Source: Ampullaceana balthica
Taxonomy: Eukaryota; Mollusca; Gastropoda; Lymnaeidae
DNA length: 64,000 bases
NCBI GenBank assembly: GCA_944989445.1
Contig: CALYLW010000121.1
Span: forward strand, 1,518,105-1,582,104
Direction of reading: 5' to 3'
The position numbers and the translations under genes are program-made. Below the pieces are notes generated by a model. The model was not told the origin of the DNA, did not search any database, and was given only the letters and a program-made list of their open reading frames with translations. Of the stretch, positions 5,676 through 24,000 are shown one piece after another. Within the stretch, counting starts at the first letter, position 1, and each line of letters begins with the position of its first letter.

Positions 5676-6002
5676 CTACTCTGGAGGCTCGCTAATCTGT
5701 CCAAGAAATAAAATGGTGCTTTTGGCTCGTTTTTCCCTGATTAAAAATAGGAAGGCGTGATCAACATCAACAGCCGGTGGTGGCGTTTCCACAGATAGGC
5801 AACAGTAGTTAACACTAGATCCACTTGCAGCAGCCGCCTCGGTGCCCTCCTTGTTCACCTTCACGTAAGCCTTGTGGACGACACTCTGGAGGTACAGACC
5901 CGTCTTTTGGCTCATTCCTTCGAAGTGGGCATTTATTTCATCAAACGCCTCAGCCATGCCCAGAGTTTTCAAGGCGGATTTCAGGTCGAAGGTGTCAGTT
6001 AC
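5676..6002 (-). CDS. Serpin terminal exon, cassette 5 (Cys-Cys loop)
   Basis: Most distal cassette, about 17.7 kb from exon 4. Acceptor CTTTCCCAG, phase 0, 108 codons and a stop. It begins [20 protein letters not shown] and has the inhibitory hinge [11 protein letters not shown]. The loop reads [15 protein letters not shown], giving predicted P1 Cys and P1' Cys. The end is [16 protein letters not shown] then [12 protein letters not shown]. It is diverged along its whole length from cassettes 2-4, so it is an older duplicate, but it keeps an ideal hinge and open frame. Codons here are noticeably more GC-rich than in the other cassettes. Confidence 0.91.
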   Translation of the reverse strand, partial: VTDTFDLKSALKTLGMAEAFDEINAHFEGMSQKTGLYLQSVVHKAYVKVNKEGTEAAAASGSSVNYCCLSVETPPPAVDVDHAFLFLIREKRAKSTILFLGQISEPPE

Positions 6003-21000: not shown

Positions 21001-24000
21001 GCAAAAAAATAACTTTTTTTTTGGATTCCTGGATCACGATTTTATTTAAGCTGGTTTACTATCACAGTTTGTCAAAGTATGTAAGACTTCAGTTGCATAC
21101 ATGGAAACAAGCTGCGACTCTTAGAGTATGTCAAGAACAAACGTTGATATAGGAGTCAGACAGAAAATGTTTAGTCTCCAAATGAGTGTGTTTTAAAACC
21201 TAAAATAAATCAAAACCTAAAAAAAACCTCAAAGGCTCCAGTTGGCCCAATAATTCATGGACAGTTTTACCAATATTCTTTCACATATCTTATTCATCTG
21301 TACTATAATTAATCTGCTTAATGTGGATGTTTAAGGAATGAAATCAAACAATCATCTTATGACATGCCATTGATGATAACTTCTTTAGTTGACTAGTCAA
21401 ATACATTATTCTACTTGGCTCAAATTTCAGCTGGGATTCAAAGCAACATTTAGGACTAAGCATGCAAGACTTTCATTTACAATTTATAATAAAAAGAAAC
21501 AAAATATATAGAGCGATAAAAAGATAAAGAGAGATGGAAAGTATATATATATATATATATATATATATATATATATATATATATATACAATGTATATATA
21601 TATATATATATATATATATATATATATATATATATATATGTATATATATATTATATATATATATATATATATATATGTATGTATGTATATAAATATACAA
21701 ATAATATATATTAGACAAAGAAATTGAAATTTTCCCTAGACCTGATAGGACACAGAGGCAGAGGCGTCACCATTTGTGTTTGTGTCACCCAGTGCAGATG
21801 CTTATGCAGGGTGTCCACCCAAATCTGGTCCAAAAAAATCCTACCAGCCACCAAAAAATCCTACCATCCAACCGACAAGTAAAAGTTATTATTCGGACAA
21901 GTAAAAGTATATATTCGACAAGTAAAAATTTAACTTTCGGTATTGTATGTTAACACTTAGTTGTTCAAGCCACTCAGAGTAAGAAGTGTCTTTTAACCAG
22001 TCTGAATTAAAATAACATTTCACCATGTTGATGGGATTGATAGTGTTTTTTGTAATAGTATACAAATTGTCAATATCTGGATAGTGAAGTAAGGAACAAT
22101 ATTAAACTGACAAAAAGTAAACTAGTCTTAAGACTTTAGTCAAGAATTTGCCTACTGCAGCCTACCCTAAAAAATGTTAGTTAACACACTTTAAATTGTA
22201 ACCATTTAACTAGACTAGAATCTAGATTTCTATATGTTTAGCACATAATTTTCAACACTGAACAGGACTGATTTTTAATCTATTTACATGTAATCATAAA
22301 AAATAAGCTTTGATTTGAAACAGAATCTAGATCTAAACCTATTTAAATAGTTGCTTTAATAGTTGTGACTTTGGCATACCGTGACTGTTTAAGTATTTTA
22401 AAAGAAATTAACTGAACTAGATCTAGATTTTAGACGTGGCTAGGCTAAGCCTAAGGTTTTTTTCGTTTTTAATTTTCACAAAATACTAGATTAGAGAGAT
22501 CTATTGACTTCAAGCAGACAAAATGGCGACTGTTGCTAAAGCAGCTAAACAATAAGCACAAAAATCGTAGTTAACACTGCTCCCGTAAATTTTTTGGAGA
22601 TATAACAAAATTAAATTAATAAGTGGAATGAATCTTCATACTTTTCTTGACGTTTTATGACCGTTTTTTAGAAAATATGTTGATTTATAAAGATACAGGG
22701 CCTTGTCAAAGTTTTGAATCGAATGGTCATTTTTTCTCTCTTCCCCTTACTTAGAATCTAGACTAGCTATTTTGCTGTCAAACATAGATCTATATCTGCC
22801 TTAACTTAAAAGTATCCCCCATTAAAAACTTTTACAATACTTTAATAGTTGGGGATAGATATCTATTATTTACTCAGATCATGATATATTTTTAACCAAA
22901 ATCCTAATATGAATATGTAGATCTAGTATATTACACTAATTACTATTACGCGGTTACTAGATCTATACTATGGCTAGCGTAAGTAATTTCACAATTTCTA
23001 TCTGTTTCAATCACAGTGCACTTAATGTTTACAATGCCATCTTTAACGAGAATTATTTTGTTTAATATCTGTAATTTGTTTGTATAAGTTTAGTTTTCGA
23101 CTTTTGTTTTAAAACACACATTTAAAAAAATAAAACTATAGATATATACGATATGATATCGATATGGACAGGGGACTCTGTCATAGGTAAATAACATTAT
23201 TTATACCGCTGCGAACTATTGGTATTTCCAAACCAAAACAATATGCAACGTGAGCTTCGTCATTCATTTATTTATATCTTTTATCCGACCGAGGATCGTT
23301 TATCCGACCAAAATCCGACTTATCCGACCACACCATTTTTATCCGACTAAAATCCGACTTTACGACTTCGGTGGACACCCTGTTATGGTGTCACCCTTGC
23401 CAATGACAAATAATGGGAAATAACATAATTTTACATTTTCTGATGGTGTCACGTAGTGCAATCCGCAACCCCTGCAACCCCCTAATTACACCTCTGCACA
23501 AAGGGAAATGCCACTTTTTGAATGAGAATATATTTTTCTAAAAAGAACATAAATTTAAAAGGTCAGTTAAATATTGCATTACAGATTAAAAAATAAAAAG
23601 ACAAGGGAAGTAACCAAGGGATTGTAGAGGAGGAAATTAGTTATGGTATAATTTGGTTACAGTACCTCAAATTTAGGCATGGTGAGCTGAATTTTGAGTC
23701 CTGGTTTTCCAAGGTTCTCAAAAACCTTACTGAGTTTTTCCCAAGTCAACTTTTGAACTAGTTCCTGAACAAACAGAATATAAACATGAGATATGACAGG
23801 TCTTGAGTTTTAGACAAATATAATAAAATATAATGATGAGCTAACAGACAAGTTTGAAAAATAAAAAGTCACAAAAACAATTTTTTAAATAAACAATTAC
23901 GGCCTAATCTTCTCTTGTAACTTACAATACTATAAAAAAAAGTTTAATAGATTTCTAATGTTTAGGTAATTTCTTTTGATACTTTCTACTTACATTTAAG

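Follow-up and report, generated by a model that had tools for sequence, protein, structure and literature searches.

A probable loop-swapping serpin gene with alternative 3'-terminal exons in Ampullaceana balthica

Results

Architecture of the locus

The window analysed here, a 64-kb stretch of Ampullaceana balthica DNA, carries on its minus strand four constant serpin exons followed by five serpin-type terminal exons (cassettes A to E) and the remains of a sixth (Table 1). Spliced in frame, the constant exons encode a 275-residue serpin body with the C-terminal end LTMPKFE, and in a profile search this body alone covers positions 2-269 of the Pfam Serpin model (PF00079). Joined to cassette A, the body matches the profile over positions 2-370 with 372.5 bits, a full-length serpin domain. 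Joined to cassette B, it matches leukocyte elastase inhibitor (4ga7; SERPINB1, vertebrate clade B) over residues 2-380 (E 1.9e-86); among solved structures this is the top match along the entire protein. The original prediction, which spanned positions 5676 to 23764, took in the cassettes and exon 4 but left out constant exons 1-3 (28729-27044). No signal peptide is evident at the modelled N-terminus, where no hydrophobic leader was recognized by eye. The CAACAG acceptor-like site close to the start codon could receive a coding leader exon from further upstream.

Table 1. Exons of the serpin gene and other features of the window
Feature	Position	Strand	Description
CAACAG acceptor-like site	28753-28730	-	24 nt 5' of the ATG; intervening 8 codons open and in frame (by eye)
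Constant exon 1	28729-28381	-	starts at ATG; 349 nt; start phase 0, ends in phase 1
Constant exon 2	27778-27617	-	162 nt; start phase 1
Constant exon 3	27258-27044	-	215 nt; start phase 1
Constant exon 4	23764-23666	-	99 nt; begins and ends in phase 0; donor GAG/gtactg
Cassette A	19520-19197	-	107 codons; hinge EQGSQMSVS; Pfam Serpin 271-370, 74.2 bits
Decayed sixth cassette	18117-17834	-	two frames, with stops (tblastn and three-frame reading)
Cassette B	17378-17055	-	107 codons; Pfam Serpin 270-370, 116.5 bits
Cassette C	16069-15749	-	106 codons; Pfam Serpin 270-370, 120.2 bits
RVT_1 piece	9184-9642	+	between cassettes C and D; below the Pfam cut-off; LINE-like by look
Cassette D	8845-8522	-	107 codons; R-X-K-R proprotein-convertase-like site; Pfam Serpin 270-370, 112 bits
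Minisatellite	7846-8199		between cassettes D and E; 48-nt unit, 7.4 copies, 99% matches
Cassette E	6002-5676	-	108 codons; Pfam Serpin 272-370, 96.2 bits
OTU cysteine-protease domain	31221-31520	-	open frame upstream of the serpin gene, same strand; 25.8 bits (cut-off 23.3)
RVT_1 piece	35889-37133	+	LINE-like by look
RVT_1 piece	40542-41447	-	LINE-like by look
MFS transporter domain	53949-55286	+	in an open frame
BED zinc-finger domain	56774-57016	-	perhaps transposon-derived

Each of the five cassettes lies directly 3' of an AG acceptor, begins in phase 0 and runs to its own stop after 106-108 codons. The junctions that had been proposed, from 23666 to 19520, 17378, 16069, 8845 and 6002, proved exact in acceptor, phase and stop. 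That every cassette completes the serpin fold was likewise confirmed, as all five reach the Pfam Serpin model individually, from profile position 270, 271 or 272 to 370, with E values from 1.6e-20 (A) to 1.5e-34 (C) and 74.2-120.2 bits against a cut-off of 27 bits. Protein identity among them ranges from 35 to 87%. An AG followed by at least 100 open codons is not in itself rare, occurring at 47 of the 3406 AGs of the minus strand (the real exons counted in), so the case for the cassettes rests on homology, register and conservation. One body, several phase-compatible reactive-centre loop (RCL) exons and a single donor, the arrangement expected of an alternatively spliced RCL serpin, are all present.

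Scored with an ad hoc matrix, the exon 4 donor, common to all cassettes, is weak (-1.02 against 2.26, 1.41 and 7.01 for the donors of exons 1-3); such weakness counts against the reading of alternative terminal exons, but it would suit regulated choice.

The decayed sixth cassette is absent from the original prediction. Its first part (18117-17980) is matched in tblastn by B, D and E, and its second (17971-17834) by D alone. It is broken by stops and a frame change, which suggests that one or more members have been lost from the array. The array is also interspersed with a minisatellite and a reverse-transcriptase piece, the latter of which (9184-9642) may help to explain the spacing of C and D. 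Beyond the serpin gene, the window holds further LINE-like reverse-transcriptase pieces, open frames with OTU and MFS domains, and a BED zinc-finger domain.

Position of the junction

The 60th residue of cassette B is the last residue of the hinge, which places the junction between body and cassette 180 nt before the end of the hinge (-180). By the general serpin fold, the junction would precede helix I, and each cassette presumably comprises helix I and strand 5A followed by the hinge, the reactive-centre loop and the C-terminal strands. In the alignment to 4ga7, the junction falls between ...VSLPRFK and LEESYTLNS...

Bait loops and hinges

With the hinge Gly taken as P15, the P1-P1' pairs come out as originally predicted, namely Cys-Ser in A, Arg-Cys in B, Tyr-Cys in C, Lys-Arg in D and Cys-Cys in E, but the assignment for D is rendered doubtful by alignment to Drosophila Spn42Da (4p0f). 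The D bait, RLKR-A, aligns without gaps to RRKR-A of that serpin over a stretch that begins at strand 5A and reaches slightly beyond the scissile bond, after which a two-residue gap follows. By contrast, in 8gxv (Proteinase inhibitor I4 serpin), the best-scoring match of the search that gave this alignment, the predicted P1-P1' positions are occupied by Arg-Ser, so the Lys-Arg register may still be the right one. The P1 of Spn42Da is Arg342 by experiment, though one crystal was cut after Lys341 (PMC4006314). Another convertase inhibitor with a Lys-Arg bait, lancelet Spn-1 (NMMKR/S), is described in PMC2556349. The P1 of D may thus be Arg and not Lys, the P15 register there being off by one residue, and on alignment RLKR/A is at least as likely a scissile site as the Lys-Arg bond. 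An R-X-K-R convertase site is the most likely bait of cassette D. Against this count the missing leader and the C-terminus of D, ...GQISDPSI, in which no ER retention tail is evident by eye, a signal peptide and a retention signal being expected of convertase serpins of the secretory pathway; an alternative leader exon may, however, lie upstream.

Hinges were compared by eye with the inhibitory consensus E[EKR]G[TS].(AGS)4 of PMC2770083. Cassettes B, C and D share the hinge EEGTEAAAA, which conforms fully, and E carries KEGTEAAAA, in which a K stands at P17 and the remainder fits, so that the match is strict in three of five cassettes and near in four of five. The hinge of A departs from this consensus, which suggests that A is probably a non-inhibitory form. 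Of the five interchangeable bait loops originally proposed, that of A is not clearly a bait.

Divergence among the cassettes

The resemblance among cassettes B, C and D begins about 25 nt 5' of the exon and ends about 20 nt past the stop; in the next 200 nt of flank, B-D and C-D do not exceed shuffled alignments, and some upstream similarity persists in B-C alone. Within the exon, the three differ at 8 sites over the first 150 nt but at 49 over the other 177, and the longest stretch free of variation measures 62 nt, compared with a mean of 23 by random placement (p 0.00025, under a null that ignores coding constraint). The gradient extends to fourfold sites, of which 4 of 23 vary up to nt 150 and 10 of 17 beyond it (p 0.009).

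The loop is enriched in non-synonymous change, with 12.5 changes per 38.1 sites in B-D as against 3 per 207.3 elsewhere (Fisher p 1.2e-8), and likewise in B-C (p 5e-4) and C-D (p 1e-4); these loop tests use segments picked after the alignment had been viewed, rounded fractional counts and uncorrected p values. Positive selection on the B-D loop is not significant when its dN of 0.43 is set against the loop dS of 0.22 (p 0.47), and p is 0.025 when loop non-synonymous change is compared with exon-wide synonymous change. In B-C and C-D, loop dN is lower than loop dS.

This pattern suggests a homogenization restricted to the exon, in which exchange among cassettes would keep the scaffold halves of B, C and D alike and let their bait halves grow different. 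The uniform first half might alternatively reflect selection on exonic splicing signals. The more distant pair B and E shows no gradient at fourfold sites (6 of 14 and 6 of 12), which, on small numbers, leans towards homogenization over synonymous constraint.

Discussion

The locus is most likely a single serpin gene with alternative 3'-terminal exons. The data show the exons and their register, a donor common to all cassettes, one set of constant exons and constraint on the coding sequence; more than one cassette is presumably in use. The polymerase would cross up to 18 kb between exon 4 and E, the exon 4 donor would be joined to one of the five cassette acceptors, and each terminal exon would end its own transcript. 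The choice of cassette would change the protease that is trapped, the predicted targets being a proprotein-convertase-like enzyme for D (RLKR/A), an Arg- or Cys-site enzyme for B, an aromatic-site enzyme for C and a Cys-site enzyme for E. No sign of base pairing of the docking and selector type was found as a means of choice: the longest perfect complements between the exon 4 intron and the upstream regions of A to E (10, 10, 10, 10 and 13 nt) lie within the range of shuffled sequences (means 10.4-11.6, maxima 13-18).

A variant compatible with this reading, and in our judgement a rather unlikely one, is that the cassettes are mutually exclusive internal exons spliced to a common downstream 3'-UTR exon. 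Poly(A) signals do not speak for separate ends: hexamers average 1.85 per 600 nt along the whole AT-rich strand, so those past the cassette stops mean little as 3'-end markers, and the support they had seemed to offer for cassette-specific ends was dropped. A donor-like site at +126 of cassette E also fits a shared 3' exon. That no donor scoring above 5.5 occurs within 600 nt past the stops of A-D says little against it, since this threshold would also miss three of the four real donors.

The preferred reading, in which several terminal exons are chosen, must also be weighed against the improbable case that only one or two cassettes are used and the remainder are recent duplicates heading for decay. 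Such a course would fit the sixth cassette, already decayed, and the lost hinge consensus of A. However, all five cassettes remain open with AG acceptors, even though A and E stand at a dS of about 0.95-1.6 from the others, and dN/dS is 0.24-0.48 in all ten cassette pairs (Nei-Gojobori, with several dS values near saturation). Simulated neutral copies, drifting without indels, seldom stay open, at 4-9 of 400 per cassette after 0.5 substitutions per site and 25-39 of 400 after 0.25. The differences among B, C and D, moreover, fall mostly in the second half of the exon and above all in the loop, sparing the scaffold half.

Although serpin genes commonly cluster (17 of 29 in D. melanogaster fall in 6 clusters; PMC2770083), it is highly improbable that each cassette belongs to a gene of its own or is left over from a full serpin duplicate, which would bring separate constant exons: in tblastn with the constant body (E up to 10), every constant exon has a single match in the window, the sole further match being at chance level (E 1.7). 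The proposal of alternative terminal exons is upheld in part, by the one constant set, the five intact phase-0 cassettes and their dN/dS.

Loop-swapping serpin genes are already known. Manduca serpin-1 is said to combine one body with an array of alternative RCL exons, and exon-cassette serpins of nematodes were reportedly the subject of Kruger et al. 2002. Loop-swapping by alternative exons is reported for insects, nematodes and urochordates in PMC4006314. The same paper describes Spn42Da (Spn4) as an invariable core with alternative C-terminal exons bearing different RCLs. The present gene resembles it in its constant core, its swappable C-terminal RCL exons and the convertase bait on one of these. 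The variable region of Spn42Da, however, begins at G335, just after the hinge (PMC4006314), whereas the junction here lies 60 codons earlier than the hinge end. A further difference is the alternative signal-peptide exon of Spn42Da, of which a non-systematic inspection noticed no counterpart here.

PpSerpin-1 of Pteromalus, which has 21 C-terminal forms (PMC10513286), similarly joins one body to an array of alternative RCL exons, but its alternative regions measure 44-50 aa, against the 106-108 aa of our cassettes. The predicted size of the swapped unit, about 107 codons, is thus accurate, and the unit is larger than in the insect genes compared. That source also records that alternatively spliced serpin genes of one insect clade splice at hinge-end position +1 in 161 of 192 cases and at +4 in 19 of 192. 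The junction at -180 falls outside this class of 180 insect genes, and each cassette here carries its own hinge, unlike those of Spn42Da or of the 180.

The shifted junction and the roughly doubled length of the unit speak for an independent origin, as had been proposed, and the array probably arose separately from the insect ones. Serpin intron positions are known to be fluid (PMC2556349, PMC2746811), so this is an inference and not a proof. No molluscan or gastropod loop-swapping serpin was found among the literature matches listed, a set that mostly leaves subscription papers outside its scope and is weak evidence of absence. With regard to mammals, the last-exon choice of isoforms proposed here had no known examples as of 2009, according to PMC2770083.

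Conclusions

We put forward, tentatively and as less than an even prospect, a broader reading of this locus as an independently derived loop-swapping serpin that exchanges the spring (hinge and strand 5A) together with the bait, switches between inhibitor and non-inhibitor, maintains its scaffold through exchange among cassettes and offers a repertoire selectable by splicing. Should this prove true, the choice of exon could switch inhibitor against non-inhibitor in addition to changing targets, and the array would amount to a small inhibitor repertoire from which splicing selects. The gene would also allow one to ask whether exchanging hinge and bait together confers on/off control. The convertase-like bait of cassette D would mean that the same class of target has been reached by a differently built array, and another solution, built on a different junction, would mean that modularization of the serpin fold has happened more than once.
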